Assembly: GCF_000024265.1 (NCBI RefSeq)
Contig: NC_013204.1
Span: forward strand, 434,001 to 498,000
Length of the DNA: 64,000 nucleotides
Reading direction: 5' to 3'
Origin: Eggerthella lenta DSM 2243
GTDB taxonomy: Bacteria > Actinomycetota > Coriobacteriia > Coriobacteriales > Eggerthellaceae
Shown: positions 16,142 through 32,129 of the stretch, one piece after another
Layout of the letters: the number at the start of each line of letters is the position of its first letter
How positions within the stretch are numbered: the first letter of the stretch is position 1
The notes under the pieces: generated by a model
Told to the model about the DNA's origin: nothing
Databases searched by the model: none
The model's input: the letters and a program-made list of their open reading frames with translations, nothing else
Program-made: the position numbers and the translations under genes

Positions 16142-16186
16142 ACTTTCAAGTGCGTTCTTGCATGACTCGTTTTCGCTGTGGATACT
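16142..16186 (+). promoter_or_regulatory. HxlR-type operator/promoter A (upstream of the regulator gene)
   Basis: ACTTTCAAGT (16142-16151), 6 nt, -35 TTGCAT (16158-16163), 17 nt, -10 GATACT (16181-16186). Same spacing as sites B, C and D; only this site lacks the second operator copy 19 bp upstream. A separate TATAAT at 16347-16352 may be a second promoter, and GAATCGCTAG is repeated at 16315 and 16370. The predicted leader from promoter A to the start is about 200 nt. Confidence 0.65.
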
Positions 16187-16397
16187 AAACTCAGGGGTCG
16201 CCTAAAATGGGGTGCTCACAAGGTGCTTTCCGGGGCGAACGCCGTGCGGCGGCAGCCGCGGGATTTTGAGGAGAGAGGACAACGCTTCTGGAACGCGTTC
16301 GCGTCATGCCGATGGAATCGCTAGCTTGGCGATCCTCCGTCTTCTCTATAATCAATCACGCTGTCCGTTGAATCGCTAGTTGAGGGAAGTAGGTTGT

Positions 16398-16919
16398 ATG
16401 CTTGAGAGAATGGACGATTTAACTTCATGCTCCCTTTCGTATGTCGCTTCGATATTGGGAGGCAAGTGGAAACCCTTTATCGTGTGGTATCTGAGCATGG
16501 CTCCCGGCAAGAGGGCGCGTTACAGCGAGTTGAGAAAAAGCATTCCGTACGACATATCGCACAAGATGTTCAGCCAGCACCTCAGCGAGCTCGAGCAGGT
16601 GGGGATCATCGAGCGCGTTGTCGTCGAGGTCAAGCCCCTGCGCGTCGACTATCTGCTCACGGAAAAGGGCATCAGCTTCGCGAACGTCCTGTACTTCATC
16701 CGCGATTGGGGCGCGGCGTACGGCGGCTTTTCTGCGGAGACGCTGCAGCGCACGAAGGGCACGATGGGCGAGGGCGTGCTGGTGTACGGCAGCGCCGACG
16801 ACGGCTCCGAGCAGGGGGCTGCGGAGCGTATCACCTGGCAATTCGATCCTTCGACGTTCGACGTGCGCACCGGCTCGCGCGAAGGCGACGCACGCGAAGG
16901 CGACGCGCCCGAAGCGTAG
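16398..16919 (+). CDS. HxlR-family winged-helix regulator
   Basis: A 173-residue protein. Residues 5-105 carry the HxlR winged helix (CSLSYVASILGGKWKPFIVW at the start, then SQHLSELEQVGIIERVV and LTEKG). The last 60 residues are acidic and repetitive (REGDAREGDAPEA) and unlike the family core. Family members such as B. subtilis HxlR activate catabolic genes by binding repeats upstream of the promoter. It heads the EthD/OYE/SDR block and has the same operator in front of it, suggesting autoregulation. ATG 16398 was chosen; ATG 16410 is possible. Confidence 0.88.
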   Translation: MLERMDDLTSCSLSYVASILGGKWKPFIVWYLSMAPGKRARYSELRKSIPYDISHKMFSQHLSELEQVGIIERVVVEVKPLRVDYLLTEKGISFANVLYFIRDWGAAYGGFSAETLQRTKGTMGEGVLVYGSADDGSEQGAAERITWQFDPSTFDVRTGSREGDAREGDAPEA

Positions 16920-17018
16920 TCTTCGGGCGCTCAAGCGAGGGCCCTGCCAGGGCGCTCTCAGGGCTTGCCGACCGCCTTGCGGCCCCTCTCGGCTTTCTTT
17001 CGATTACCCGTCTGTCTC

Positions 17019-17082
17019 ACTTTCAGGTAAGAAGCGCACTTATAAGTGCATTATTGCGCCAGTATTCCCGCGTCAACAGAAT
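17019..17082 (+). promoter_or_regulatory. HxlR-type operator/promoter B (EthD protein 1)
   Basis: ACTTTCAGGT (17019-17028) and ACTTATAAGT (17038-17047, inside the 14-bp palindrome GCACTTATAAGTGC) are 19 bp apart centre to centre. Then 6 nt, -35 TTGCGC (17054-17059), 17 nt, -10 CAGAAT (17077-17082). Confidence 0.7.
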
Positions 17083-17155
17083 ACGAGGTAAGAACCGCAT
17101 CTCGAAATGATCTGCGGTGCAAGGACAGGGGTACGTTTCAGAAAGGATGATCGGC

Positions 17156-17851
17156 ATGATTTCAAGAATCAACTTGCTCAAACGGAAAGAGGGACTGACT
17201 GCTGAGGAGTTCGCCGCGTATCTGACGCAGGCTCATGGGGAGCTTCTGGCCACGATGCCCTTCCTCAAAGGGTGCGAAACGAACGTGGTGGTGGACAACG
17301 AGCAGCGCTCGCCGTTCGACCGCGGCTCGACGGAAATCGACGGGTACACCGAGATGTTCTTCGACAGCTACGGCGACATGGTGCGCGGCATGGCCGCTCT
17401 CGAAGAGGCGCTTGCGACCGACTACGCCCAGTTCGCGGCTCCCGGCATCCCGGCTCTTGTGGCGGTGAAGAAGGTCGACACGCCGGTTCCCGCCTATCTG
17501 GACGACGTGAAGCTGATCAAGCGCATGTCGTTCCTCGGGCGAAAGGACGGCGTGAGCGCGGCGGTGTTCCAGGACGAGTGGTGGCAGATGCATTCCGCGC
17601 TGGTCAAGACTATGACGGGCTATGCGGGGTACAACCAGAACCTCGTCATCGACCGCATCGTGGACGGGGAATCGGTGCCGTTCGAAGAGCTGCCCATCGA
17701 GGGCGTGGTGGAATTCTGGTTCGAGAACATGAAGGCGTTCGACGAGTGCTACGGATCTCCGGCCTTCAAGCGCACGGGCGCGCACGGCACGGAGTTCATC
17801 GACAACATCACGACCTACTTGGTGGAGGCGCAGCCTATCGCGATGGCGTAG
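17156..17851 (+). CDS. Two-domain EthD-like protein 1
   Basis: A 231-residue cytosolic protein made of two EthD-like (dimeric alpha-beta barrel) halves: residues 1-105 and about 115-231. Each half has the pattern strand, helix with His, strand ending NxVVDxE or NQNLVIDR. In this copy both helices keep the His (QAHGELL, QMHSALV). EthD-type folds occur in cyclases, degradative enzymes and small-ligand binding proteins; no catalytic role can be assigned. Closest to copy 3 in this block (shared VAVKKVDTPVPAYLD). AAAGGAT precedes ATG 17156; first gene behind promoter B. Confidence 0.75.
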   Translation: MISRINLLKRKEGLTAEEFAAYLTQAHGELLATMPFLKGCETNVVVDNEQRSPFDRGSTEIDGYTEMFFDSYGDMVRGMAALEEALATDYAQFAAPGIPALVAVKKVDTPVPAYLDDVKLIKRMSFLGRKDGVSAAVFQDEWWQMHSALVKTMTGYAGYNQNLVIDRIVDGESVPFEELPIEGVVEFWFENMKAFDECYGSPAFKRTGAHGTEFIDNITTYLVEAQPIAMA

Positions 17852-17928
17852 GCCGCCGCGCCGGGGGTTTCGAGAGCTGCAACCCGGAATCCCCGGCGCG
17901 CACGTTGTCCGGGGAGGGGTGCGAATCG

Positions 17929-18033
17929 ATGTTGGATGGCAGGGGGCATGGGAGGTTCGAGAGCTACCGACTGAACGTCCGTGAACCCATTGCGAGCAAC
18001 ATGATCGTCTCAGGCTTTTTCGGGAGAGGATGA
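17929..18033 (+). pseudogene. Remnant of an EthD-like gene
   Basis: A 34-codon frame with a GGGGAGGGG ribosome site. Residues 9-25 (GRFESYRLNVREPIASNM) align with EFKDYWLNVHGPIASKM of EthD protein 2, and the DNA is also similar there (compare 17958-18003 with 21107-21150). Only the first-helix region survives. It indicates that a fifth EthD gene once lay before the transporter. A GC hairpin (17858-17866/17891-17899) separates it from EthD 1. Confidence 0.65.
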
Positions 18034-18036
18034 AAC

Positions 18037-19338
18037 ATGGTGGCAGCTACAAAGAAAAAAACTTCGTTAGCCAGGGCGGTGTTCTCGGGGAGCCTTGGGA
18101 ATATGCTGGAATGGTTCGACTACGGGTTGTACGGGTACTTCGCAGCGATCATTTCCGCAGATTTCTTCGTTGCCGACGACCCGATCGTCGGGCTCTTGCT
18201 CAGCTTCCTGGTCTTCGGAACGGGCTTTCTCGTACGCCCCATCGGCGGTATTCTGATCGGCGCGTACGCCGACAAGCACGGAAGAATCAAGGCTTTGACG
18301 TTGACGATCCTGTGCATGGGCATCTGCACCATGCTCATGGGATGCTTGCCAACGTATTCCCAGGTGGGACTTTTGGCACCCATCCTGCTGACGGTGCTGC
18401 GCCTGCTGCAGGGCCTGGCAACGGGCGGCGAGTTCGGCTCTTCGCTGACGTTCATCTCGGAGTACGGAACGCCGAACAACAGGGCCTTCCTGTGCAGCTG
18501 GCAGCCGTTCAGCGTCGGTTGCGGCCTGCTCCTGGGGTCCACCGCGGGGCTGCTCGTCACCACGCTTCTGCCTGAAGCGGCGCTGTACGAGTGGGGATGG
18601 CGCGTGCCGTTCCTCTGCGGAATCCTGATCGCCTTCTACGGCGTGCACATGCGCAAGAACGTCCCCGATTCCCCTGAGTTCCTGAAGGCGAAGGCGGAAG
18701 TGAAGGAAGAGGACCATACGCCGGTCAAAGACCTGTTCCTGCGCTACAAGAAGTCCATCATCACGGTGATCGGGCTGCTCGTCGGCTCCAGCGCGACCTA
18801 CTACATCCTGATCACCTATATGCCGACGTACATCTCGCAGTTCATGGGGACGTCGTTCTCGAGCGCGTTCGTCGTCAATACGTCGGTCATCGCGATCAAC
18901 TTGCTGCTCTGTCCCATCGTGGGCCTGCTCATCGACAAGGTGGGAAGGCGGAAATGCCTGATCATCGGCTGTCTCGGGTTCCTTATCCTGTCTTATCCGG
19001 TGTTCTACGTGCTGATCCAGCAGACCAACGCTCTCTTGATGATCGGCTTGCTGGGAGTGCTGATCGTGTTCCAGACGATTCTCGCCGTCGCCATCGTGGT
19101 GGTTTCGGCCGAGGTGTTCCCCACCAAGCTCCGCAACAGCGGCATCGGCTTCTCCTACAATATCGCGGCGGCGGTCTTCGGCGGCTTGGCGCCCCTTGCG
19201 GCAACGGCGCTCATCGCGGCCACGGGCGATCGCCTGTCCATCACCTACTTGATGATAGGTTCCGTCCTCATAACGCTCTTGACCACGATCTTCCTTTTGA
19301 AGGGGTATTACGTCAAGGGAAAGAACGCGTCGAGCTAG
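18037..19338 (+). CDS. MFS transporter, metabolite:H+ symporter (MHS/ProP-like) family
   Basis: A 433-residue protein with about 12 hydrophobic segments. It shows the MHS signatures GNMLEWFDYGLYGYFA at the first span and GILIGAYADKHGR in loop 2-3, then RLLQGLATGGEFGSS. MHS members import organic acids, osmolytes or aromatic compounds by proton symport. Located behind EthD 1 and the EthD remnant on the same strand, so it is probably the uptake system of this catabolic block. ATG 18037 follows GGGAGAGGA. A hairpin follows the gene. Confidence 0.85.
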   Translation: MVAATKKKTSLARAVFSGSLGNMLEWFDYGLYGYFAAIISADFFVADDPIVGLLLSFLVFGTGFLVRPIGGILIGAYADKHGRIKALTLTILCMGICTMLMGCLPTYSQVGLLAPILLTVLRLLQGLATGGEFGSSLTFISEYGTPNNRAFLCSWQPFSVGCGLLLGSTAGLLVTTLLPEAALYEWGWRVPFLCGILIAFYGVHMRKNVPDSPEFLKAKAEVKEEDHTPVKDLFLRYKKSIITVIGLLVGSSATYYILITYMPTYISQFMGTSFSSAFVVNTSVIAINLLLCPIVGLLIDKVGRRKCLIIGCLGFLILSYPVFYVLIQQTNALLMIGLLGVLIVFQTILAVAIVVVSAEVFPTKLRNSGIGFSYNIAAAVFGGLAPLAATALIAATGDRLSITYLMIGSVLITLLTTIFLLKGYYVKGKNASS

Positions 19339-19345
19339 CAAAGAA

Positions 19346-19370
19346 GCACGGGGGAGGCGATCCCCCGTGC
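19346..19370 (+). terminator. Hairpin between the two transporter genes
   Basis: GCACGGGGGA (19346-19355) pairs perfectly with TCCCCCGTGC (19361-19370), loop 5 nt. There is no T run, so it may be an mRNA-stabilising or attenuating hairpin in place of a full terminator. Confidence 0.5.
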
Positions 19371-19408
19371 TCCCTCGCGCGAGGATGGCGGATGGGGAAG
19401 AAGGGGGC

Positions 19409-20791
19409 ATGGGCAGCGTAGGGAGACTCGCTCGCACTGCGAGAAGCGTGATCACCTTTTGCTTGGGCATAAGCTATATGGCGAACGTGCTCCTCGGATC
19501 GCCGCTGATCGACGATCTCAACCTGGTTTTGATGGCCGTTGTGATCGTCCTGAGCTTCGCGGCATCAACCGGGTCGGCAAGGACGATCGGAGCTCTGCTG
19601 TTCTCCTTGAGCATCGCTTTGCTGGTCTACTCGCAGGCGCCGCTCGATATCTGGAAGCAGGCGTTGCGGGAGAACGCGTACCTCATCGTCATGTTCATCA
19701 TGGTGCCGCTGCTGGGGATTCCCGTGCAACATGGAGGATACAGCGAGTCGTTGCGCGGGATGTTCGCTCGTTACGCGAGCACCGGCAGCCGGTATTATGC
19801 GCTGGTGAGCATCATGTCCGCGTTCGTCGGCGTGCTGATCAGCATTGCGGCAGTTCCGCTGACCTACGAGATGTCCCGAGCGAGCCGCCACAGCGACGAC
19901 AAAAAGCTTCTCAGCTCGGCGCTCAGCCGGGGGTTCGTCACCTGCATGATATGGGCGCCGACCTCGGCGACCATCGCCCTGGTCGTTCAGCTGACGGGCA
20001 TCGATTGGGTGGACTTCTTTCCCTGCGCCCTTGCGTGCGCGCTCGTGGCGGGCACCGTCGGCTTCCTGATGACCCTCGCGAGGGAAAAGACGGCCGATGC
20101 CCCTTCCGGCAGGGTGGAAGAGCCCGTCGGCGCTTTCGATGCGAGGAAAGTCGTCGAGCTGGGCGCAGGCGCTTTGCTGCTGATCGCTTCCATTGCGACG
20201 GTGTCCCAGCTGGGCGGGCTTTCGATCATCATCGTCGTCGCCATGGCGTCGCTGGTTTGCCCCGTCGTGTGGATGGCGATCGTCAAGCGATTGCCGACGT
20301 ACGTGAAGGAGTTCAAGGGTGACTATTTCAACAACAAGCTTCCGCAGGTCAAGAATCAGATACTGCTGTTCGCCGGAGCCGGGTTCCTCGCGCAGAGCAT
20401 CGGCTACTCTCACGTGGGCGATGCCATGGCCGAGGTTCTCTTGCAGCTCACCGGGCAAAACGTGCTGTTGCTCACCATAGCGATAATCGCCGTCACCCTG
20501 GCGACCTCGGCCGCCGGCATCCACCCCATCGCGGTCGTCGCCGTGGTGGGAGGGGCAATCAGCGCTTCGGAGTGCGGCGTTACGCCCGTCTACCTGGCTC
20601 TCGTCTTGTCGATCAGCTGGGCCATGGGAAACGCGCTCAGCCCCGCATCGGCGAACGTCATAGCCGTTTCCGATATGGTCGGGCAGTCGCCAATCAAGGT
20701 TGGCTTGCGGTGGAACGGGCCTTACGTGCTGGTGACGACGACCGTGCTGATCTGCGTTCTCACGCTTTCGAGGGCGGTGGGACTGCTGTAG
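19409..20791 (+). CDS. Ion-transporter-superfamily (CitMHS/ArsB-like) membrane protein
   Basis: About 460 residues with 11-12 hydrophobic segments in two halves joined by a charged loop (AREKTADAPSGRVEEP). Small-residue re-entrant-like stretches (WAPTSATIALVVQLTG; ISWAMGNALSPASANVIA) recall the ion-transporter superfamily of carboxylate/cation carriers. Exact family and substrate are uncertain. ATG 19409 follows GAAGAAGGGGGC; an in-frame ATG at 19385 is the alternative. It follows the MHS transporter on the same strand. Confidence 0.6.
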   Translation: MGSVGRLARTARSVITFCLGISYMANVLLGSPLIDDLNLVLMAVVIVLSFAASTGSARTIGALLFSLSIALLVYSQAPLDIWKQALRENAYLIVMFIMVPLLGIPVQHGGYSESLRGMFARYASTGSRYYALVSIMSAFVGVLISIAAVPLTYEMSRASRHSDDKKLLSSALSRGFVTCMIWAPTSATIALVVQLTGIDWVDFFPCALACALVAGTVGFLMTLAREKTADAPSGRVEEPVGAFDARKVVELGAGALLLIASIATVSQLGGLSIIIVVAMASLVCPVVWMAIVKRLPTYVKEFKGDYFNNKLPQVKNQILLFAGAGFLAQSIGYSHVGDAMAEVLLQLTGQNVLLLTIAIIAVTLATSAAGIHPIAVVAVVGGAISASECGVTPVYLALVLSISWAMGNALSPASANVIAVSDMVGQSPIKVGLRWNGPYVLVTTTVLICVLTLSRAVGLL

Positions 20792-20833
20792 GCGGAGGCC
20801 CAAACATCGCCGCCCAACAGGGGTTTACCACTT

Positions 20834-20897
20834 ACTTACAGGTGCCCTTATGACTTTAAAGTGCGTTATTGAGGCCGATTTCGAATCATCATAGTAT
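20834..20897 (+). promoter_or_regulatory. HxlR-type operator/promoter C (EthD protein 2, OYE genes)
   Basis: ACTTACAGGT (20834-20843) and ACTTTAAAGT (20853-20862) are 19 bp apart. Then 6 nt, -35 TTGAGG (20869-20874), 17 nt, -10 TAGTAT (20892-20897). Confidence 0.72.
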
Positions 20898-21047
20898 GCG
20901 GGTATGCAGAGGTCGCGAGCCGCCCGAGCTCTTTGGACGGGCCCCGGCGCGGCAGCCGCCGCGATGCGGCGATGTTCATGCAGGCGAGGCGCTGGGGGCG
21001 CCGAAATTCGTAGCCGTTCGCACGTTCGATTCAGGGAGGATGATCGC

Positions 21048-21749
21048 ATGATCAGCAGATGTGGATTGATGCAGAAAAAAGACGGAATGGGCATGGAAGA
21101 GTTCAAGGACTACTGGCTGAACGTCCATGGTCCCATCGCAAGCAAGATGGCGAATCTGCGCAAGTACGACCAGCACGTCGTAGTCGATGCCGAGCATCGC
21201 CATGCTATCGGACGGGGTTCGGTGGTTATCGACGGGTATTCCGAGCTGCAATTCGACAGTTACGGCGACATGGTCGAGGGCGTGGAGTCGCTGCACGGCG
21301 AAGGAGCGAACGATGTCCCGATGTTCGCCAACCCCCATTGCCAAATTCTCGTGCTGGCCAAGCGCGAAGTCATTCGGATCCCGGAGTACCTGCGCGGCAG
21401 GAAGCTCATCAAGCGCGTGTCGTTTCTCGGTCGCGCCGACGGCGTTACTTCCGAGCAATTCGTCAAAGAATGGTGGAACGTGCACGACCGCTTGGTGCAG
21501 ACCGTTCCCGGGTGCGTGGGGTACAACCAGGATCTCGTCATCGACCGCATCGACGGCGGCGTATCCGTTCCGTACGAGGAGCTTCCTGTAGAAGGCGTCG
21601 TGGAGATGTGGTTCGAAACGAAAGAAGCGTTCGACGAGTACTACGCTTCCCCCGAATTCGCGCGCGCCTCTGCGCACAGCTCGGAGTTCATCGGGGCGAT
21701 CAACACCTACCTGACCGAAACCTATCCGGTTGCCTTGCCGTCTGCATAG
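21048..21749 (+). CDS. Two-domain EthD-like protein 2
   Basis: A 233-residue paralogue with two EthD-like halves. Both keep the helix His (LNVHGPIASKM and WWNVHDRLVQT), and both strand motifs are present (VVVDAEHRH, NQDLVIDR). It belongs with copy 4 and with the remnant at 17929 by its LNVHGPIA block. GGGAGGA lies 7 nt before ATG 21048. First gene behind promoter C and 70 nt upstream of the first OYE-type reductase, so it is probably co-transcribed with both reductases. Confidence 0.75.
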   Translation: MISRCGLMQKKDGMGMEEFKDYWLNVHGPIASKMANLRKYDQHVVVDAEHRHAIGRGSVVIDGYSELQFDSYGDMVEGVESLHGEGANDVPMFANPHCQILVLAKREVIRIPEYLRGRKLIKRVSFLGRADGVTSEQFVKEWWNVHDRLVQTVPGCVGYNQDLVIDRIDGGVSVPYEELPVEGVVEMWFETKEAFDEYYASPEFARASAHSSEFIGAINTYLTETYPVALPSA

Positions 21750-21819
21750 GAGCCTGCGATCTTCCGTCAAAAAAGCTGCGTTTCAGTAAAGAAGAAGCAC
21801 GAGAAAAAGGATCAACGAT

Positions 21820-23919
21820 ATGAAAGCTTACGAGAAGTTGCTAGAGCCGATAACCATCGGTACCCACCAGTGGAGAAATCGCATGGTCAAAGCGCCGTCG
21901 TCCGCGATGTCGTGGGATCCGGGCCAGTTCTGCAACGAGAGGATCATCGGCCTGTACGATGCGATTTCCAAGGGCGGCGCTTCGGCGATCATCTTGGGCG
22001 GCATGATCTGCGACGATCCTGCCACCTTGATCGACGATGCCGACGGCGGCGTGTACACCGTGGAAACCTACCCGCTGGGCGGTTTGTACGATGACAAGTT
22101 CATTCCCGGCCTTTCTCAATTGGCCGACGCCGTGCACGGGAACGGATGCGAGCTCATCGCCCAGATATTCCAGAACGGTGCCGCCATCAAGACCAAGGGC
22201 GGAGCCTGGTGCTCTTCCACGTTGACCGCAGACGAGCTCCCGAGCCCCGAACCGTACTGCAACCCTACGCGCGGCCTTTCGCTCGAAGAGATCGAGGCGT
22301 TCAAAGATCGCTACTTCGCAGCGGCCGAGCGCGCCAAGAAGGCCGGTCTCGACGGCATCGAGGTGCACGCGGCGAACGGCTACTTCCTGCTGAGCTTCGT
22401 GTCGCGCGTATGGAACCATCGCGACGATCAGTACGGTTGCCAGTCCGTCGAGAACCGCACGCGTTTGGTATGCGAGATCATCCGCGGCGTGAAGGAGCGG
22501 TGCGGCGAGGACTTCATCGTGGGCGTTCGCACGAATGGCCAGGAATACGGGCATCCCGATGCCATCACCATCGAAGAGGGCGTGGAGATCGCGAAGTTCT
22601 ACGATGCTGCCGGAGCCGACTACATCAGCGTGACGGGTTACGGCTACGGTCCGGTTCCCATGCAGTTCGCTCTGGACTACTGGATGTACCCGTCTCCCGA
22701 CGAGGATATGAAGCAGTTCCTCGATCGTCTGGACGGCGAAGGCCTCTCCATTCCCCCCGCTGCCGCCATCAAGCAGGCCGTGTCGGCTCCGGTGTTCGGC
22801 GTCGGCTTCGCAACGCCTGAAAAGGCCGAGGCGGCGCTTGAGAAGGGCGAGATCGACCTGGCGATGTTCGCACGCGCTCTGTGGGCCGACCCCGACATGC
22901 CCAACAAGATCGCGGAAGGGGCACCCGAGGACATTCGCCGTTGCAACCATTGCGCAACGTGCGACGAGCTGCGCATGAACGAGACGCCGCACCGCCGTTG
23001 CCGCGTGAACCCGGCGTTCCTGCGCGAGCGGGAAATGGCCGTCGTGCCTGCGGAGACTAAGAAGAAGGTGCTGGTGGTAGGCGCTGGCGCCGCGGGTCTC
23101 GAGGCTGCCCGCGTCGCCGCCGAGCGCGGCCATGAAGTCACGCTGTGCGAGAAGGAATCCGTCCTGGCCCTCGAGCTCAACCTGGCCACCATGGTGAAGG
23201 GCACGGTGTGCGAGAACGTCCCTGCGCTCATCGATTGGCTGACGTCTCAGGCCAAGAAGACGCCGGGGCTTACCATCAAGACCAAAACGACGGTGACGCC
23301 CGATTTCGTGCGCGCCATGAAGCCCGATGCGGTCATCGTCGCGACGGGAGGCGTGTACGGCGCGCCCGACGTTCCGGGCATCGACTTGGGTATCGTCTCC
23401 ACGGTTCCCCAGCTCACCCGCTTGGCCGAAAAGCCGCTCAAGCTCTTCGGCGCAAACGCCATCAACAAGCTCTCCCAGATCGCCCTGCCGGGCATCGGCA
23501 AGAACTGCGTCGTCCTCGGAGCTCAGATCGAAGGCGTGCAAGGCGCGATCTTCCTGCGCAAACGCGGAAAAAACGTCACGGTGCTCGAAGATTTGGACAC
23601 GGTGGGAGAGGGGTTGCCGCCGCGGTACAAGAGCAGGTCGCTTAAGTGGCTGCGGGAAAACGACGTGGAGACGATCACCGGCGTCGAGTACCGCTCGATC
23701 GACAAGCGCGGCATCACGTACGTCAAGGACGGCGAAGAGCGCTATCTCAAGGCTGACAGCATCCTGGTGTTCAAGTCTCCCGGTTCCGGCCTGAGCTTGT
23801 ACGACCAGCTGAAAGACCTGGCCCCCGAGGTGTATCCCATCGGCGCATGCCAGGGACCCGGATCCACGCTCATGGTCGACGCGGTGGGCCAGGGCCGAGC
23901 CGTCGCCCTGAAGCTGTAA
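21820..23919 (+). CDS. OYE/iron-sulfur flavoprotein enoate reductase (BaiCD/BaiH-like) 1
   Basis: A 699-residue protein of the 2,4-dienoyl-CoA-reductase/BaiCD/BaiH family. An N-terminal FMN barrel (1-360) with HAANGYF is followed by a cysteine cluster, Cys375, 378, 381 and 394, for a 4Fe-4S centre. An NAD(P)H/FAD module comes next, with VLVVGAGAAGLEA (about 410) and a second dinucleotide fold (NCVVLGAQIEG). Such enzymes reduce or form C=C bonds conjugated to carbonyls, as in bile acids and isoflavones. The Cys spacing C-x2-C-x2-C-x12-C is one residue shorter than the C-x2-C-x3-C I recall for the family. Substrate unknown. Confidence 0.85.
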   Translation: MKAYEKLLEPITIGTHQWRNRMVKAPSSAMSWDPGQFCNERIIGLYDAISKGGASAIILGGMICDDPATLIDDADGGVYTVETYPLGGLYDDKFIPGLSQLADAVHGNGCELIAQIFQNGAAIKTKGGAWCSSTLTADELPSPEPYCNPTRGLSLEEIEAFKDRYFAAAERAKKAGLDGIEVHAANGYFLLSFVSRVWNHRDDQYGCQSVENRTRLVCEIIRGVKERCGEDFIVGVRTNGQEYGHPDAITIEEGVEIAKFYDAAGADYISVTGYGYGPVPMQFALDYWMYPSPDEDMKQFLDRLDGEGLSIPPAAAIKQAVSAPVFGVGFATPEKAEAALEKGEIDLAMFARALWADPDMPNKIAEGAPEDIRRCNHCATCDELRMNETPHRRCRVNPAFLREREMAVVPAETKKKVLVVGAGAAGLEAARVAAERGHEVTLCEKESVLALELNLATMVKGTVCENVPALIDWLTSQAKKTPGLTIKTKTTVTPDFVRAMKPDAVIVATGGVYGAPDVPGIDLGIVSTVPQLTRLAEKPLKLFGANAINKLSQIALPGIGKNCVVLGAQIEGVQGAIFLRKRGKNVTVLEDLDTVGEGLPPRYKSRSLKWLRENDVETITGVEYRSIDKRGITYVKDGEERYLKADSILVFKSPGSGLSLYDQLKDLAPEVYPIGACQGPGSTLMVDAVGQGRAVALKL

Positions 23920-23946
23920 TCGCGAGACGAAGGGAGGGGAGTTTGC

Positions 23947-26007
23947 ATGAAAGGCTTCGAGAAGCTTTTGTCTCCGATTGAGATAGCGCCGAATTTCGTG
24001 TTGAAGAACCGGATGATCAAGGCTCCTCAGTCGTCGTGGCGCTGGAACGAGGACTGCACCGCCGACGGCAGCGATGCCATCGCCATGTACGAGAACATGG
24101 CGGAAGGGGGAGTTGCGGCTATCGATGTCGCGGCCATACTGTGGGAACCTGCGGGAGGCATCTACCTGGGCGCTTACGACGACAGGTTCATTCCCGGCAT
24201 GATCGAGCTCAACGAGGCCGTTCACAAGCACGGGTGCCTCACCATCGGTCAGTTGCATCATATCGGTCCTTCGGCCGGCCCGACCCCTGACGGGCCTCCC
24301 CCGATCTCGTCCTCTACGTTGTCCGAGGACGAGATGCCGGTTCCCAAGCCGTGGTGCCAAGCCCCTCGCGGCCTGACGGTCGAGGAGATCCACGAGAAGC
24401 AGCGCTTGCAGATCGAGGCTGCCGTGCGGCTGCAGAAGGGCGGGTTCGATGCCGTCGAGGTGCACGTGGCTCACGGGTACTTTCTCGACAGCTTCGTCAG
24501 CCCGCTTTGGAACAAGCGCGATGACGAATACGGTTGCCAGAACGTCGAGAACCGCACGCGCATCGTGCGCGAGATCATCGAAGGCATCCGCGAGGCGTGC
24601 GGCCCCGACTTCGTCATCGGCTGCCGTCTGAACGGGCGCGAATTCCATCCCACGAAGCAGGGTATCACGGCCGAGCAAGCTGCCGAGAACGCCCGAGCGT
24701 TCGTGGAGGCCGGCGCCCAGTACATCAGCATCGCCGGATACGGGTACGGTCCCACGCCGTTTCGCTACTGCCCCGACTACTTCCCGTACCCGGAACCCGA
24801 TCCGTTCATGGAGCCCTTCATGGACGAGTACCGCGGGGTGGGTCTGTGGACGGCCGTTGCTCGGCGGATCAAGGATGCTGTGGACGTGCCGGTCATCACG
24901 GCGGGCCGCATGGACGAGAACTTGGCAGAGCGCGTGCTCGAAGCCGGCGATGCCGACGTCATCGCGCTCGGCCGCACGCTGTGGGCCGATCCGTGGTTCG
25001 CGCGCAAGGTGGACGAGGGGCGTATCGACGAGATCATGCGTTGCACGCGTTGCGCGAGCTGCGAAGATCCGGTCACGCAACCGCGCATCTGTCGCGTGAA
25101 TCCCACCTTGGGTCAAGAGCGCCAACTAGCCGCCAAGCCGGTGGCGAAGAAGAAGCGCGTGATGGTGGTAGGCGGCGGTCCGGCGGGCATGGAATGCGCG
25201 TGCACGCTCTCCGAACGAGGGCACGAGGTGACCTTGTACGAGAAGGCGGGCGCTTTGGGCGGACGCATCAAGCTGGCGGCCATGATCAAGAGCGGCGGAT
25301 GCGAAGAGGTCATGCATATCTTCAACCACTTGACCGCCATGATCGAGAAGTCTGACGTCGAGGTGAGGCTGAAAACCGAAGTTGACGAGCAGCTCATCCG
25401 CCAAGAAGCTCCTGATGCGGTGGTCGTGGCCACTTCGTCGCCGTATCGCATCCCCGATATTCCGGGCATACATCGCAAGAACGTGTTCACCATCCCGATG
25501 ATGTCGAAGCTTGCGCAGGTACCGCTCAAGATGTTCGGTCCGGACAAGCTTGCTTCGATGAGCGAGAAGTTCTTCCCCGTAGGCAAGAGGATCGTGATTT
25601 GGGGTGCAGGCGCCGAGGGCGCTCAATGCGCCGAGTTCATGCGCAAGCGCGGCAAGGACATCGTGCTGGTCGCCGAAGATGGGGATGTGGGCGGTTTGAT
25701 TCCGCTCAAGTACAAAGAACGTATCGAGCCGTGGTTCAATCGCGCAGGGGTTCGTGTTGTACGCGATGCCACGGTGGCTGAATTCGGCAAGCAAGGGGCG
25801 CTGCTGAGGTTCTCGCAGGGGGGAGAAGAGCTGGTGCCGTGCGATTCCATGATGGTCATGCTGCCTGAGCAGCGCGACCCGGCGTTTTTCGACATGGCCG
25901 CGTCGCTCGTCGACGAGGTGTACGAGATAGGCTCGACGCTCGGCGGCGAGAACGCGTTCCTCAAGCATGCGTTCGCCGACGGACGCCGCGTGGGCTGTCT
26001 TCTGTAA
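23947..26007 (+). CDS. OYE/iron-sulfur flavoprotein enoate reductase (BaiCD/BaiH-like) 2
   Basis: A 686-residue paralogue of the preceding gene, 27 nt downstream. It has the same domain order: FMN barrel (HVAHGYFLDSF), Cys366, 369, 372 and 382, then VMVVGGGPAGMEC and a second nucleotide fold (VIWGAGAEGAQCAEF). The two proteins differ enough for opposite stereospecificity or regiospecificity, as for BaiCD and BaiH. The Cys cluster again has the short C-x2-C-x2-C spacing. ATG 23947 follows GAAGGGAGGGG. Confidence 0.85.
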   Translation: MKGFEKLLSPIEIAPNFVLKNRMIKAPQSSWRWNEDCTADGSDAIAMYENMAEGGVAAIDVAAILWEPAGGIYLGAYDDRFIPGMIELNEAVHKHGCLTIGQLHHIGPSAGPTPDGPPPISSSTLSEDEMPVPKPWCQAPRGLTVEEIHEKQRLQIEAAVRLQKGGFDAVEVHVAHGYFLDSFVSPLWNKRDDEYGCQNVENRTRIVREIIEGIREACGPDFVIGCRLNGREFHPTKQGITAEQAAENARAFVEAGAQYISIAGYGYGPTPFRYCPDYFPYPEPDPFMEPFMDEYRGVGLWTAVARRIKDAVDVPVITAGRMDENLAERVLEAGDADVIALGRTLWADPWFARKVDEGRIDEIMRCTRCASCEDPVTQPRICRVNPTLGQERQLAAKPVAKKKRVMVVGGGPAGMECACTLSERGHEVTLYEKAGALGGRIKLAAMIKSGGCEEVMHIFNHLTAMIEKSDVEVRLKTEVDEQLIRQEAPDAVVVATSSPYRIPDIPGIHRKNVFTIPMMSKLAQVPLKMFGPDKLASMSEKFFPVGKRIVIWGAGAEGAQCAEFMRKRGKDIVLVAEDGDVGGLIPLKYKERIEPWFNRAGVRVVRDATVAEFGKQGALLRFSQGGEELVPCDSMMVMLPEQRDPAFFDMAASLVDEVYEIGSTLGGENAFLKHAFADGRRVGCLL

Positions 26008-26018
26008 GGCATCATCCC

Positions 26019-26057: not shown

Positions 26058-26191
26058 GGAGTGCATGAAGGGAAACCGGAAGCGACGCGAACCGAGGGAG
26101 GTGACTGCCGGGCGAAGCCAGGGTTTCGCACGAGACGGACCGCTGTTCGTTTCGGAATGCAATTTCGAAGGTAAACAAGGAGGAAAGAACA

Positions 26192-27427
26192 ATGTCGGTT
26201 AAAACTTATCGTCGCGGGGTCATCCTGATCTGCGCGGCCTTGTGCGGTGCGCTGACGGCGTCGTTGAATATTTGGAGCATCTTCCAGAAGCCCCTGATGG
26301 AAGCTTATGGCTTCTCGCCTCAGTCGGTGTCGTTCGCCTACACCATCGTTATCGCTATGATCGGTTTGAGCGGTCCCATCGGCGGATGGCTGCAGCGCAA
26401 GGCGCCTGCGCATATCATCATGACCGTTGCCGGCATCGGCTTCGGCCTGGGCTGGTTCCTGACGGGCTTTGCCAGCACCATCCCGGTGCTATACATATCG
26501 TTCGGCCTGCTGGTAGGCGTGTGCGACGGTATTTGCTACAACCTTGCCCTCGCTATCGCTACGCGGTGGTACCCTGACAAGCGCGGTTTCGCCAACGGCG
26601 TGGCTCTGGCCATCATGGCCATCTACCCGTTGTTCACGGCTCCTATGGGCAACATGATCATCGAGAACTTCAACGTGAGCATCGCGTTCAACATCGTGGG
26701 CGTGTTCTGCATCGTCGGCTTCATCGTGTTGTCCCGCTTCCTCAAGATGCCTGCTGCTGATTTCAAGCCCGAGGGTTGGAATCCGCCGGCCGAGAGCGAT
26801 ACGAAGCGCGTGAAGAACTACACGTCCGGTCAGATGCTGAAGACCCCGTTCTTCTGGACGCTGCTGCTGTTCTTCGGCACCGTTGCCTGCACCGGTTGCG
26901 TGATGCTGTCCACGGTTTCGCTGGTGGGGCAGGTCCAAGCCGGCATGGATGCTGCGACGGGCGCGCTCATGGTGGGCATCTTCGCCATCGCCAACGGCAC
27001 GGGCCGTTTGGGTCTCGGCGCCATTTCCGATAAGTTGGGGCGTTTCCAAACCATGTTCGTCGCCGTTGCGGTGACGGCGGTCATCCACCTGTTCCTGTTC
27101 GCTAATGCAACGAGCACCGCGATCTTCATCGTGGAGGCATGCATTCTGGGTATCTGCTTCGGCGGCATCATGGCCATCATGCCGTCGGTATGCGCCGATG
27201 CCTACGGTCCCGGCAATGCGGGCCAGAACTACGGCTTCATGTTCATCGGCTACACGCTGGCCTCGTTCATCGGCCCGGTGGTTTCCGCCAACGCGCTTGC
27301 CACCACGGGCAGCTACAGTTCTGCATTCCCGTTCCTCGGTGCCCTCTGCATCGTCGGTCTCGTGCTGCTGTCGCTGGCGTGGATGTTCTTCAAGAAGATG
27401 AAGGCTAAGGACGCCGCTGAAGCGTAA
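26192..27427 (+). CDS. MFS transporter, oxalate/formate-antiporter-like (OFA) family
   Basis: A 411-residue protein with 12 hydrophobic segments; the N-terminal SIFQKPLMEAYGFSPQSVSFAYTI and the GRLGLGAISDKLGR loop are typical of the OFA family, which exchanges organic anions. Classical bai operons also contain an MFS carrier (BaiG), so the position fits substrate uptake or product export. Strong AAGGAGG site before ATG 26192. The 184-nt gap upstream holds the hairpin at 26019 and no clear promoter. Confidence 0.82.
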   Translation: MSVKTYRRGVILICAALCGALTASLNIWSIFQKPLMEAYGFSPQSVSFAYTIVIAMIGLSGPIGGWLQRKAPAHIIMTVAGIGFGLGWFLTGFASTIPVLYISFGLLVGVCDGICYNLALAIATRWYPDKRGFANGVALAIMAIYPLFTAPMGNMIIENFNVSIAFNIVGVFCIVGFIVLSRFLKMPAADFKPEGWNPPAESDTKRVKNYTSGQMLKTPFFWTLLLFFGTVACTGCVMLSTVSLVGQVQAGMDAATGALMVGIFAIANGTGRLGLGAISDKLGRFQTMFVAVAVTAVIHLFLFANATSTAIFIVEACILGICFGGIMAIMPSVCADAYGPGNAGQNYGFMFIGYTLASFIGPVVSANALATTGSYSSAFPFLGALCIVGLVLLSLAWMFFKKMKAKDAAEA

Positions 27428-27456
27428 AACGCGTATGTGCTGGTCGGATGCATCTT

Positions 27457-27520
27457 ACCAATAAGTGAGTTGCGCACTTTCAAGTGCGTTGTTGAAGGCG
27501 CCCAACAGCTGCCGGATACT
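27457..27520 (+). promoter_or_regulatory. HxlR-type operator/promoter D (EthD protein 3 and SDR operon)
   Basis: Degenerate ACCAATAAGT (27457-27466) and ACTTTCAAGT (27476-27485, inside CGCACTT-TC-AAGTGCG) are 19 bp apart. Then 6 nt, -35 TTGAAG (27492-27497), 17 nt, -10 GATACT (27515-27520). Confidence 0.72.
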
Positions 27521-27554
27521 AAAATTCCCGAACGATCTGAGGAAGGGGTAGGAC

Positions 27555-28253
27555 ATGATTTCCAGGATTAGCTTGCTGAAGTGCAAAGAAGGGGTTTCCG
27601 AAGAGGCGTTTCGCGAGGGCATGATGGGGGATGTGCGCGACGTGATCGCCCGCATGCCCCAGCTGCGGAAGTGCGAGATCGATTTCGTGACCGATCGCCA
27701 GCAGCGCTCTCATCTGGGTCGCGGCGCCATCGACATCGACGGCTTCATCGAGATGTTCTTCGACAGCTACGGCGACATGCAGCAGGCGATGGACGAAGCG
27801 GGGGATGCTCTGCTGGCTGCTCTGGAGCCGCTCGTGGAAGAGCCCGTTTCCACGCTGGTTGCGGTGAAGAAGGTGGACACGCCCGTTCCCGCCTACCTCG
27901 ACGGCAAGGCTATCAAGCGCGTGTCTTTCTGCGATCGCGCGGAGGGCGTCGATGCCGCGACGTTCCATGACGAGTGGTGGTACACCCATTCCCTGCTGGT
28001 GAAGCTGATGAGCGGGTACTGCGGCTACAACCAGAACCTGGTCATCGACCGCATGGTCCAAGGCGCGTCCGTCCATTACGCCGACCTGCCGGTCGAAGGC
28101 ATGGTGGAGTTCTGGTTCGAGGACATGGACGCGTTCGACGAGTGCTACAGCACGGTCGGTTTCAAGCTGCGCGCGAGCGTGCACGCAGCGGAGTTCATCG
28201 GCACCGTCACGACGTATTTCGTCGAAGCCGTGCCTGTGGAGCTGCAGAACTAG
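27555..28253 (+). CDS. Two-domain EthD-like protein 3
   Basis: A 232-residue EthD paralogue, closest to copy 1 (ISRISLLKCKEG, VAVKKVDTPVPAYLD). Its N-terminal half lacks the His found in the other three copies (EGMMGDVRDVIARM), while the C-terminal half keeps it (WWYTHSLLVKL, NQNLVIDR). It may therefore be active or ligand-binding in only one half. It is the first gene behind promoter D, 64 nt before the first SDR gene. Confidence 0.75.
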   Translation: MISRISLLKCKEGVSEEAFREGMMGDVRDVIARMPQLRKCEIDFVTDRQQRSHLGRGAIDIDGFIEMFFDSYGDMQQAMDEAGDALLAALEPLVEEPVSTLVAVKKVDTPVPAYLDGKAIKRVSFCDRAEGVDAATFHDEWWYTHSLLVKLMSGYCGYNQNLVIDRMVQGASVHYADLPVEGMVEFWFEDMDAFDECYSTVGFKLRASVHAAEFIGTVTTYFVEAVPVELQN

Positions 28254-28317
28254 ACGAAGTTCGGACTGCATCGCGAACTCGGCGTGATGCAGTCCTTTTT
28301 GGAAGGGGAGCGTTGCT

Positions 28318-29214: not shown

Positions 29215-29314
29215 CGGCGCGTTCTGCGTCGATGAAGGCGTGCGCCAAAGGGGGAGGGTTGGCGCACGCCGATCGGCGCGCTCGCGGTAACTCATTAAGG
29301 AGAAGGGGTGTGTC

Positions 29315-30070
29315 ATGGCTCGGTTCGATAACAAGATCGTGCTGGTCACGGGTGCGGCGAACGGTATCGGGCGTTGCATGGTCAAGTGTTTCCTTGCGGA
29401 AGGCGCCGAGAAGCTGGTTGCCGTCGACATCGAGCACGATACGTTAGAGGATGCGTTCGGCGACGAGGATCGCGTTCATACCATACCGTGCGATATCACC
29501 GATTACGATGCCGTGCACCGCATGGTCGACGAGGCCGTCGAACGCTTCGGCCGCATCGACATCCTCATGAACAACGCGGGCATCAGCATCAAGGACGGGC
29601 AGAAGTACGGTATGCTCACCTGTCCTAAAGATGCTTGGGATCGTGTGATCGCCACCAACGTGAACGGGTCGTTCTACGTGGCGCAGGCCGTTGCCCAGGC
29701 CATGGTGGCGAAGAAGACGAAGGGCGTTATCGTGAACACGTCTTCGAACACCTTCCGTTTCATACCGAAGTACCTTGGCGCGTATCCCGCATCCAAGGCG
29801 GCCATCGCCGTGTTCACCAAGCAGTTCGCAAAAGAGCTTGCCGAATACGATATACGCGTCAACGCGTTTGGACCCGGTACGACGAAAACCCGCATGAGCG
29901 AGCCGACGCGTTTGAACCCGCACATGAACGAGCAGTTCTTGAACGATATTCCCATGCACCGCTACGGCGAAGTGAAGGAGGCCGTGGATGCGGCGCTGTT
30001 CCTCGCTTCGGAAGAGTCTTCCTTCATGTTGGGGGAGATCATCTTCGAGGATGGTGGGCAGAGCCTCTAG
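29315..30070 (+). CDS. Short-chain dehydrogenase/reductase 2
   Basis: A 251-residue classical SDR with TGAANGIG at 12-19, NNAG near 86, and catalytic Ser144, Tyr157, Lys161 (YPASK). Asp38 after the second strand (AVDIE) suggests NAD(H) preference. Length matches BaiA-type hydroxysteroid dehydrogenases, but the family is broad and the substrate cannot be inferred from this alone. AAGGAGAAGGGG ribosome site. The 100-nt gap before it has no promoter that I can support. Confidence 0.87.
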   Translation: MARFDNKIVLVTGAANGIGRCMVKCFLAEGAEKLVAVDIEHDTLEDAFGDEDRVHTIPCDITDYDAVHRMVDEAVERFGRIDILMNNAGISIKDGQKYGMLTCPKDAWDRVIATNVNGSFYVAQAVAQAMVAKKTKGVIVNTSSNTFRFIPKYLGAYPASKAAIAVFTKQFAKELAEYDIRVNAFGPGTTKTRMSEPTRLNPHMNEQFLNDIPMHRYGEVKEAVDAALFLASEESSFMLGEIIFEDGGQSL

Positions 30071-30096
30071 CTGTGCGTTAGATTAGGAGGACGACA

Positions 30097-30846
30097 ATGG
30101 AAAGAGAGCGGTTTGTTGACAAGATAGCCCTGGTAACCGGCGGTGCCAACGGTCTTGGGCGCGGCATGGTCGAGCAACTCGTGAAGGAGGGTGCCCAGGT
30201 TGCCATCTTCGACATCGAGGACGATACGATGGAAGAGGTGTTCGGGGGCAACGATCACGTTTTCTGCGTGCACTGCGATGTGCGCGACTACGATCAGGTG
30301 CAGGAAAGCGTGCAGAAGGTCATCGATCGATACGGGCGTATCGACGTTTTGATGAACAATGCCGGCATCTGCCATCGGGAGCCGTTTCTGGAGTGCAGCA
30401 AGGAGGGATGGCTCGATGTGATGGCCACGAATCTGAACGGCGAATTCTACGTCGGCCAGGCTGTTGCGCGCACGATGGTCGAGCTTGGCGTGAAAGGCTA
30501 CATCGTGAACACGAGCTCGAACAGCTCCCGCAAGACCATCGGCGGCATCACCCCCTATTGCCCCTCGAAAGCCGCCGTCAAAATGCTTACGCAGGTGATG
30601 GCGCTCGAGCTGGCGAAGTACGGCATTCATGTGAACGCGATAGCTCCCGGCACGTCGAAAACGCGCATAGCCGCCGGGACGATCAACGATCCTGAGCGGA
30701 GCGCTGCGTTCTTGGCGAAGATGCCCTTCGGACGCTACGGCGAAGTTCGCGAGACGGTCGACGTCGCGCTGTTCCTGGCTTCGGAAGACGCTTCGTTCAT
30801 TACGGGCGAAACCATCTACAACGAAGGCGGTTTCAGCTTGACCTAG
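30097..30846 (+). CDS. Short-chain dehydrogenase/reductase 3
   Basis: A 249-residue classical SDR and close paralogue of SDR 2: TGGANGLG at 14-21, NNAG at 87-90, Ser141, Tyr154, Lys158 (YCPSK), and Asp39 for NAD(H). It starts 26 nt after SDR 2 with TTAGGAGGA. Two similar SDRs side by side, beside a dehydratase-like gene, suggest steps on different positions or stereoisomers of the same ring substrate. Confidence 0.87.
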   Translation: MERERFVDKIALVTGGANGLGRGMVEQLVKEGAQVAIFDIEDDTMEEVFGGNDHVFCVHCDVRDYDQVQESVQKVIDRYGRIDVLMNNAGICHREPFLECSKEGWLDVMATNLNGEFYVGQAVARTMVELGVKGYIVNTSSNSSRKTIGGITPYCPSKAAVKMLTQVMALELAKYGIHVNAIAPGTSKTRIAAGTINDPERSAAFLAKMPFGRYGEVRETVDVALFLASEDASFITGETIYNEGGFSLT

Positions 30847-30858
30847 GAAGAGGGAGTT

Positions 30859-31350
30859 ATGGCAACTGTTGAGGAGCTTGAGAAGCGCATCGGGGACTTG
30901 GAGGACATGAGGGCGATCGAGCGGTTGCAGGCCGAGTATTGGGATACCCTCGATGCCAAAGACTGGGATGGCCTGAGGGCATGCCTTGTGGAAGATTTCG
31001 TGTTCGTCAACAACACGACAGGAGGGCTCTACGAAGGACGAGAGGGGATGCTCGCCACGATGCGAGCCAAGTTCGCAGACGGCGTTACGTCGAGCCATCA
31101 AGGACACCATCATTGGATCGAGCTGACGGGCGAAGAAACGGCGCGTTCGCATTGGTCGCTCCAAGACGATCTGTACGACGCGCAGCGCGGAGGCGAGTTC
31201 GTGGGCCGTGCCCATTATGATAACGAGTACGTGAAGATCGACGGACGATGGTACTTCGCCAAGATGTCGCTGACGTATCTGCGGGGCGAGGCGAACATCA
31301 AAAAGCGCTACGAAGACTGCGCGAACGCCTACCAGGTTTTCATGATGTGA
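30859..31350 (+). CDS. SnoaL/NTF2-fold protein resembling bile-acid 7-alpha-dehydratase BaiE
   Basis: A 163-residue protein with the SnoaL_4/NTF2-like cone fold. By memory alignment to Clostridium scindens BaiE (166 aa), the LEK...AI..L...Y....D N-terminus, the HxGH segment, the Y(D/N)..Y.KIDG(R/Q)WY strand and the terminal Y-x-R all match. BaiE catalytic Tyr30, Asp35, His83 and Arg146 correspond to Tyr27, Asp32, His80/His83 and Arg142 here. It could dehydrate a ring alcohol or isomerise a ring. It begins 13 nt after SDR 3. Substrate identity is not shown; related SnoaL proteins have other roles. Confidence 0.72.
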   Translation: MATVEELEKRIGDLEDMRAIERLQAEYWDTLDAKDWDGLRACLVEDFVFVNNTTGGLYEGREGMLATMRAKFADGVTSSHQGHHHWIELTGEETARSHWSLQDDLYDAQRGGEFVGRAHYDNEYVKIDGRWYFAKMSLTYLRGEANIKKRYEDCANAYQVFMM

Positions 31351-31394
31351 GGGTTGGCTTGATGAAGACCCTGTCCAACGAAGGGAGCGAGCAC

Positions 31395-32129
31395 GTGATT
31401 GTTCGGTGCGGATTGCTTAAGAGGAACGACAAGTTCACCCAGGAATCGTTCTCGCATCATTGGCTGCATATCCACGGGCCGATTGCTGCGGGAATGAAGA
31501 ACCTGCGCGTTTACAACCAGAATCTCGTCATTGACAACGAGCATCGTCACCCGATTATGGGAGGCGCCATCGATATCGACGGGTATTCGGAGCTTCATTT
31601 CGATACGTACAGCGAAATGCTCGAAGGGGTTCAGTCGTTGGATGCCGAAACCGGTAACGCCCTTCTCGACGACGCCGAGATCCTTTTGCAGAAGCGCTTG
31701 TGCGACATCCTGGTGTTTTCCCGCAACGTGGTGCGCGAAGTTCCTCCGTATCTGCGGGGAAAGAACCTGGTTCATCGCGTGTCGTTCTTGAATCGGGCGG
31801 AGGGGGTGAGCGTGGCCGAATTCCGTCGAGAGTGGTGTTATGCTCACGCGAAGCTGGTGGAGGCTGTTCCCGGCCATGCGGGCTACAATCAAAACCTCGT
31901 GATCGACCGATTCGTAGACGGGGCGAGTGTTTCCAGCGAGAAGCTTCCCTGCGATGGCATGGCCGAGTTCTATTTCGAGGACATGGATGCCTTCGAGTGC
32001 TTCTATGATTCCAAGGAATTCCAACGATTGACGGCTCATGGATCCGAGTTCATCGGCTCGGTTGACACCTACCTCGTCGAGACCCATCCCGTCGTGGCCG
32101 GGTCGGCGCGCGGAGGGTACTGCCTATAG
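31395..32129 (+). CDS. Two-domain EthD-like protein 4
   Basis: A 244-residue EthD paralogue of the copy 2 type (CGLLKRND, WLHIHGPIAAGMKNLRVYNQNLVIDNEHRH). Both halves keep the His (HIHGPIA, CYAHAKLV), and NQNLVIDR recurs in the second half. I chose GTG 31395 because it aligns with the ATG of the paralogues and has AAGGGAG at good spacing; ATG 31362 is the alternative and adds 11 residues. Last gene of the block, before a strong terminator. Confidence 0.75.
   Translation: MIVRCGLLKRNDKFTQESFSHHWLHIHGPIAAGMKNLRVYNQNLVIDNEHRHPIMGGAIDIDGYSELHFDTYSEMLEGVQSLDAETGNALLDDAEILLQKRLCDILVFSRNVVREVPPYLRGKNLVHRVSFLNRAEGVSVAEFRREWCYAHAKLVEAVPGHAGYNQNLVIDRFVDGASVSSEKLPCDGMAEFYFEDMDAFECFYDSKEFQRLTAHGSEFIGSVDTYLVETHPVVAGSARGGYCL

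Follow-up and report, generated by a model that had tools for sequence, protein, structure and literature searches.

We analysed a 64,000-nucleotide window of Eggerthella lenta DSM 2243 (positions 434001-498000 of the single-contig genome of 3,632,260 bases; coordinates below are those of the window) and describe in it a block of fourteen genes, every one on the + strand between 16398 and 32129. Judged from its sequence, the block is one real, conserved, single-operator regulon and probably one pathway. It probably works by chemistry like that of the bai operon of bile-acid 7-dehydroxylating clostridia (oxidise, dehydrate, reduce), but it is no bai operon. We tentatively read it, at somewhat under an even chance, as a substrate-inducible regulon by which a small hydroxylated alicyclic carboxylic acid loses ring hydroxyl groups, anaerobically and independently of coenzyme A (CoA). 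An initial annotation of the same DNA had proposed a bai-like cluster acting on a steroid, a polyphenol or a diet-derived aromatic.

Content of the gene block

Pfam and NCBIfam profile scans of the block proteins assign the fourteen genes to an HxlR regulator, four two-domain EthD proteins, three carriers, two long old yellow enzymes (OYEs), three short-chain dehydrogenases/reductases (SDRs) and one BaiE-like SnoaL protein. The scans agree with the inventory of the initial annotation (two Oxidored_FMN plus Pyr_redox_2 proteins, three SDRs, a SnoaL_4 protein, MHS- and OFA-type carriers and four EthD proteins), which had omitted the HxlR gene, the third carrier (19409-20791) and the two-half architecture of the EthD proteins; the block proves larger and tighter than first described, and as a whole that observation is partly confirmed. 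The start it had given for the cluster, 16142, is the first base of the first copy of the shared promoter element. It had also noted the absence of a CoA ligase and a CoA transferase, and Pfam indeed finds no AMP-binding or CoA-transferase domain among the fourteen genes. All EthD matches of the genome (6 domain hits, E <= 0.001) fall inside the block, and the block's SnoaL protein is the sole SnoaL_4 match of the genome. The features are as follows.

16142-16160, + strand: operator-like element 1, upstream of hxlR; ACTTNNAAGTGCRTTNTTG with 0 mismatches
16398-16919, + strand: HxlR-family regulator; PF01638 75 bits, gathering cut-off 20.8
17038-17056, + strand: operator-like element 2, upstream of EthD-a; 0 mismatches
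17147-17851, + strand: EthD-a, tandem EthD protein; PF07110 63.9 bits, cut-off 22
18037-19338, + strand: MHS-type metabolite/proton symporter; TIGR00883 384 bits (cut-off 443), TcuC 300 bits (cut-off 445), under both
19409-20791, + strand: weakly DcuC-like membrane carrier; NF007937 DcuC 19 bits, E 3.7e-4, no Pfam match
20853-20871, + strand: operator-like element 3, upstream of EthD-b; 0 mismatches
21048-21749, + strand: EthD-b, tandem EthD protein; PF07110 71.5 bits in 2 stretches
21820-23919, + strand: OYE1, predicted long-form iron-sulphur (Fe-S) flavin enone reductase; PF00724 and PF07992; BaiCD profile 286.8 bits, cut-off 825
23947-26007, + strand: OYE2, predicted long-form Fe-S flavin enone reductase; PF00724 and PF07992; BaiCD profile 287.4 bits, cut-off 825
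26192-27427, + strand: OFA / SfMCT-type monocarboxylate carrier of the major facilitator superfamily (MFS); NF049980 342 bits, cut-off 320
27476-27494, + strand: operator-like element 4, upstream of EthD-c; 0 mismatches
27555-28253, + strand: EthD-c, tandem EthD protein; PF07110 45.4 bits
28318-29214, + strand: SDR1; PF13561 195.6 bits
29315-30070, + strand: SDR2; PF13561 191.3 bits
30097-30846, + strand: SDR3; PF13561 206.7 bits
30859-31350, + strand: predicted BaiE-like SnoaL_4 (NTF2-fold) dehydratase; PF13577 86.2 bits, cut-off 24; best relatives BaiE
31362-32129, + strand: EthD-d, tandem EthD protein, start codon uncertain; PF07110 67.3 bits; model with a predicted local distance difference test (pLDDT) score of 88.4

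A single operator-like palindrome marks the regulon

The palindrome ACTTNNAAGTGCRTTNTTG precedes hxlR, EthD-a, EthD-b and EthD-c, beginning at 16142, 17038, 20853 and 27476. Support for it rests on later scans, because the shared-word score of the upstream comparison that first flagged it (18, against 19-21 in shuffles, lower being better) barely beat the shuffled controls. Allowing up to two mismatches, the window holds four matches where the shuffle mean predicts 0.02. Since the pattern was derived from these same four sites, the real tests are its uniqueness in the genome and its recurrence in relatives. With up to one mismatch the genome contains exactly four matches, all in the block, and the reversed control gives none, which bears out the shared promoter design that had been proposed for the block. 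At the same stringency the related loci carry four copies (L016 and L017), five (L018), three (L019 and L020) and two (L021 and L022). The restriction of the palindrome to block genes and its recurrence in relatives argue for one regulon and, probably, one pathway.

The centre of the palindrome, read from the sequence of the four sites, lies 11-12 bases 5' of a TTGNNN hexamer, which is followed after 17 bases by GATACT or TAGTAT at three sites and after 19 by GAATAC at the fourth. If these hexamers are taken as -35 and -10 boxes, the palindrome is centred near -46, a usual position for an activator. A general promoter scan found four promoters against 4.0 expected, not above chance. We infer that the HxlR protein binds the palindrome. 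This protein matches the redox regulators RrpA and RrpB in NCBIfam, far below their cut-offs; the portion of one paper available to us (PMC9734109) mentions neither HxlR nor old yellow.

Conservation and spread of the block

Several Eggerthellaceae keep the block gene for gene, another family of the order has it rearranged, and an uncultured Clostridia metagenome-assembled genome (MAG) holds a reduced version. Three loci (L016, L017 and L018) keep 14 of 14 genes in order, and two more (L019 and L020) keep 13, EthD-d being the one missing. Three of the contigs were each reached twice, as the identical pairs L007/L017, L008/L019 and L009/L020. Locus L022, which begins at a contig end, has 11 of 14 genes, with HxlR, EthD-a and the DcuC-like gene absent from the stretch read, the MHS gene placed after EthD-b and one additional OYE. 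In another family of the order (L021/L039) the set is rearranged, with two OYE2-type genes, an extra SDR and an EthD protein at 29% identity, and no OYE1 or SDR2 ortholog occurs within the 33 kb read. The OYE and SDR genes travel together across these neighbourhoods, contrary to the possibility, raised with the initial annotation, that they belong to separate operons.

The spread of the block is narrow. The SnoaL protein has matches in 9 of 396 genomes of the class at E <= 1e-10, its own included, eight at 75-100% identity and one at 29%; of 296 class genomes, 7 have tandem EthD proteins, and these seven are also the ones with the cluster SnoaL protein. In G002, another genome of the genus, neither the SnoaL protein nor the tandem EthD proteins have a match. 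Four named records match the SnoaL protein, those of E. sinensis, Rubneribacter badeniensis, Gordonibacter sp. An230 and the Clostridia MAG. The MAG set comprises SnoaL (71%), two SDRs (38-39%), an OYE (31%), EthD (50%), HxlR (44%) and a DUF169 gene, with TRAP, DASS and GntP carriers as neighbours. In the tree, the MAG SnoaL protein nests among the Actinomycetota cluster proteins, and transfer between phyla is therefore likely, with a mis-binned contig as the alternative.

We further note that the block lies directly downstream of rpsI (14991-15383) here and in L017, L018 and L019; this placement suggests either an ancestral location kept in common or a hot spot for insertion.

A BaiE-like SnoaL protein in a clade of its own

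By sequence, fold search, residues and tree, the predicted SnoaL dehydratase is BaiE-like, yet it falls in a clade of its own outside BaiE. Among solved structures, the three BaiE sequences match it best (E 2.6e-15 to 6.3e-14), and the next match has E 2.3e-4. The comparison of a predicted structure with BaiE, suggested with the initial annotation, gave BaiE at Foldseek ranks 1-4; the model has a mean pLDDT of 78.7, was built on an alignment of 5 rows, and falls below 50 at residues 144-163, and three of the five models were poor (mean pLDDT 43-46). VIA-align gave 4leh a Z of 16.9, inseparable from LinA and other NTF2 folds, and placed the unannotated 3rob first (Z 17.4).

The BaiE catalytic set that had been proposed is recovered over the stretch that the alignments with the BaiE chains cover, which ends short of Arg142: Y27, D32, H80 and H83, joined by W99 and D103, are the same as in BaiE in all nine cluster proteins and in 3 of 3 BaiE chains. 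The six-residue signature is also found in L037, a BaiE-like protein of the Clostridia MAG genome, and in three of six proteobacterial plasmid proteins. Among SnoaL_4 rows from other loci of the class it occurs in 0 of 18 (three of these rows being one open reading frame (ORF)). Partial signatures were seen in the class row L040 (5 of 6 residues) and in L035 from another Clostridia genome (1 of 6). For these other loci (the 'fam' rows), a profile built from the remaining rows picked the best ORF of each, and three loci yielded an identical ORF.

In the tree, a branch with support 97/97 places the cluster, BaiE and proteobacterial proteins and L040 together on one side, with the eight retained other class SnoaL_4 rows and 3ef8 on the opposite side. 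The SnoaL protein thus sides with BaiE-like proteins and not with ordinary SnoaL_4 proteins of the class, against the grouping with unrelated NTF2 proteins that had been raised as a counter-case. The cluster SnoaL clade (99/99) and the clade of BaiE with L037 (100/97) are separate; the link between BaiE and the proteobacterial rows is weak (83/83), and the deeper nodes are uncertain because of long branches. Left out of the tree were 11 of the 19 'fam' rows, which were weak, partial or duplicated, and two of six plasmid rows, and one cluster row consists of the last 163 residues. H84, H85, H98 and H119 are invariant in five aligned cluster proteins, where BaiE has Thr, Pro, Arg and Phe, and because these four histidines differ the SnoaL pocket likely differs from that of BaiE.

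The SnoaL protein further resembles the NTF2-fold ring dehydratases and eliminases (scytalone dehydratase, the dehydrochlorinase LinA and, from the part of the source available, SteC) in its fold, its Tyr/Asp/His set and the ring beta-elimination predicted for it. 3ef8, annotated as a putative scytalone dehydratase and lying across the 97/97 branch, lacks the second His and W99/D103.

Two side observations concern BaiE relatives. The second SnoaL protein of the Clostridia MAG genome (L037:9851-10402) groups with BaiE at 38% identity, and no bai neighbours were found among the ORFs compared. BaiE-like proteins also occur on Sphingobium and other proteobacterial plasmids (L027:10007-10453; L026, L033), some annotated as bile-acid 7-alpha-dehydratase, a label that may be over-used there.

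The OYE flavoproteins form a subtype of their own

The initial annotation had called the two OYEs BaiCD/BaiH-type, which proves too specific when they are judged by the BaiCD profile and by the loop of 2,4-dienoyl-CoA reductase; they are long-form OYEs. Like the other members of this group (2,4-dienoyl-CoA reductase, 2-naphthoyl-CoA reductase and BaiCD), OYE1 and OYE2 have the same domain order, a cysteine-rich Fe-S segment and the GY(F/L) tyrosine. Unlike 2,4-dienoyl-CoA reductase, they have a GYGYGP loop with an insertion where that enzyme has the GWHE histidine, and CxxCxxC instead of CxxCxxxC. Of the four other OYEs of the genome, two carry G(W/F)HE and two neither motif. Both proteins score far below the 825-bit cut-off of the BaiCD profile (NCBIfam NF041087), and in a genome-wide search, which scores pieces, another OYE reached 312 bits, with OYE1 at 283 and a third at 253. 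The low profile scores, the higher-scoring OYE elsewhere in the genome and the unlike loop led us to reject a specific BaiCD/BaiH kinship. By sequence, OYE1 and OYE2 form a subtype of their own with a predicted reaction.

The GYGYG loop with its insertion is common to the OYE1 and OYE2 orthologs and to an OYE1-type protein (63%) of genome G012. Searched as a DNA pattern, the loop gave two matches in the E. lenta genome, OYE1 and OYE2; across the class it hit 36 of 392 genomes with many reversed-control matches and is too unspecific. In G012 the OYE1-type gene adjoins an ordinary SnoaL_4 gene (L041:7240-10027), and no EthD, SDR or HxlR match lies within the 19.5 kb read; the pair is perhaps a two-gene relative of the block.

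The tandem EthD proteins and the SDRs

The four EthD proteins score 45.4 to 71.5 bits with PF07110, above the gathering cut-off of 22. The EthD-d model, built on a 12-row alignment, has two ferredoxin-like halves in one chain. Foldseek places an anthrone oxidase-like protein first, and also lists muconolactone isomerases (template modelling (TM) score 0.72-0.79 on the target) and the chalcone isomerase of Eubacterium ramulus (TM about 0.4-0.5). A profile of 12 EthD proteins matches chains of the 4-methylmuconolactone methylisomerase (MmlI) type over the C-terminal half (E 3.5e-7 to 1.7e-6), in keeping with the ferredoxin-like fold that MmlI and single-domain EthD proteins share with them. Unlike MmlI, the block proteins have two halves per chain; EthD-a reaches 25.9 bits with the MmlI equivalog NF053569 (cut-off 180 bits), and the column of MmlI His52 holds Ser in all four window proteins and His in the Clostridia protein. 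EthD-d matches no NCBIfam family at E <= 1e-12. These resemblances are consistent with an isomerase or lyase role of the EthD proteins.

Annotated plasmid relatives of the EthD proteins show no common theme for substrate. A Rhizobium record has a tandem EthD with an alkene reductase, a Roseomonas record has one with an SDR, an Oxidored_FMN fragment and a FAD_binding_2 protein, and others lie near LLM flavoenzymes, thiamine-diphosphate enzymes or SDRs; one record carries no annotation.

All three SDRs keep the YxxxK motif, and the Asp after the second strand, read from the translations, points to NAD as their cofactor.

A proposed pathway and its substrate

The regulon that we favour would run as follows. 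In the presence of the substrate, HxlR at the palindrome, in an activator-like position, would switch the transcripts on, and the acid would be taken up by the MHS and DcuC-like carriers. An SDR would oxidise a ring hydroxyl to a ketone with NAD, and the BaiE-like protein would remove a beta-hydroxyl by elimination of water. The EthD proteins, as relatives of muconolactone isomerases, may isomerise or eliminate at further positions, the OYEs would reduce the enones with NAD(P)H, and an SDR might reset the ketone. The monocarboxylate product would leave through the OFA/lactate-type carrier.

The carriers speak for a free, polar acid over a steroid as the substrate. The OFA protein exceeds the cut-off of the L-lactate carrier SfMCT (NF049980, 342.2 against 320 bits), which is a match to the family and not to a substrate, and the MHS protein scores best with the general MHS model, followed by the tricarballylate carrier TcuC; a Mem_trans carrier gene adjoins the set of G040. 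These carrier families mostly transport small organic acids. Because the carriers, those of the Clostridia version too, match small organic-anion families, they argue against a steroid, and a small ring acid appears likelier than the steroid or polyphenol proposed at first. That proposal is partly supported: its related but distinct reductive-dehydrating pathway lacking CoA genes holds up, while its steroid or polyphenol substrate is weakened by these carriers.

Quinate or shikimate is a guess at the substrate, named because their gut conversion is reported and they suit the chemistry; none of the sequence results points to them in particular. Hippurate can derive from quinic acid and the bacteria responsible need more study, according to the part of a paper available to us (PMC12655642). 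The full version of this proposal, in which dietary quinate or shikimate undergoes free-acid dehydroxylation to hydroxycyclohexane- or cyclohexanecarboxylate, from which urinary hippurate is made, and the EthD proteins serve as new anaerobic ring dehydratases or isomerases, is very doubtful.

Several points weigh against the small-acid regulon. Its support is genomic, namely synteny, operators and the resemblance of the proteins to known families and folds. 'Organic acid' itself is read from family resemblance, since the MHS protein falls under its cut-offs and Pfam does not recognise the DcuC-like protein. The nearest neighbours of the SDRs appear unspecific, SDR1 and SDR3 matching only general SDRs among solved structures. 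The Clostridia version carries a different OYE, nearer BaiCD (552 bits, still below 825), and has no palindrome at 0-2 mismatches, the best match at its locus (L010) having 3. The missing CoA genes are also compatible with a bile acid or steroid, because BaiE acts on the free acid too and not just on the CoA ester, as stated in the part of the source available (PMC10382948).

This last point bears on the dehydroxylation of a steroid, bile acid or triterpenoid without CoA activation, where an SDR would oxidise, the BaiE-like protein dehydrate and the OYEs reduce the enone. Such a pathway would account for BaiE as the nearest relative of the SnoaL protein, and the available part of one report describes SteC, a steroid C12 dehydratase of Comamonas, as structurally resembling BaiE (PMC13101464). 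We nevertheless consider it unlikely, given carriers of small organic-anion families, OYEs that are not BaiCD and the four invariant histidines (T, P, R and F in BaiE). To our knowledge, and as the initial annotation had it, bai operons also contain no EthD protein. The openly licensed literature that we searched yielded no paper on steroid 16-dehydroxylation with Eggerthella lenta and none on this cluster. A plant polyphenol, lignan or aromatic-derived lactone would instead make the EthD proteins lactone- or chalcone-type isomerases and the OYEs reductases of side-chain or ring enones. The muconolactone and chalcone isomerases among the EthD fold matches fit this, as does LdpA, an enzyme of a lignin-derived substrate, among those of the SnoaL protein; but the fold similarity is generic, as the low TM of the chalcone isomerase illustrates, no ring-cleaving or demethylating gene is found among the fourteen, and the carriers favour small acids, all of which makes this reading quite unlikely.

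OYEs are often stress enzymes, and the block could also be a regulon for the detoxification of electrophiles or quinones, with HxlR sensing the electrophile and the OYEs reducing it. The distant matches of HxlR to RrpA and RrpB point the same way. However, the strict linkage of three carriers and three SDRs with a BaiE-type dehydratase speaks for catabolism, and the patchy spread across the class, one of the nine SnoaL matches being distant, better suits a substrate-specific trait; we regard detoxification as very unlikely.

Flanking genes

Three FAD_binding_2 flavoproteins (11402-13081, 32503-34269 and 36865-38727) flank the block, and two of them adjoin large LuxR-type (GerE) proteins (9754-11235 and 34448-35932); we take these pairs to resemble a combination common in Eggerthella, a flavin reductase with a membrane LuxR regulator. 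The translations of two small overlapping genes at 36003-36714 resemble a RelB/DinJ-type antitoxin and a PIN-domain toxin.

Relation to the bai operon and implications

With the bai operon the block shares a predicted SDR oxidation, a putative SnoaL_4 dehydratase whose nearest solved relative is BaiE, long-form OYEs, an MFS carrier and, probably, the organisation in one inducible cluster. It differs in the separate clade of its SnoaL protein, in OYEs far under the BaiCD cut-off and in having no CoA gene, and it adds four tandem EthD proteins, an HxlR regulator and organic-anion carriers.

A common human gut bacterium thus appears to carry a compact catabolic regulon under a single operator; different genera share it, and in one case it turned up in a MAG of another phylum. 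The block may offer a way to connect an acid from the diet or the host with a bacterial pathway. Our results also indicate that BaiE-type dehydratases occur in gut anaerobes outside bai operons, which matters where bile-acid genes are called by similarity in metagenomes.

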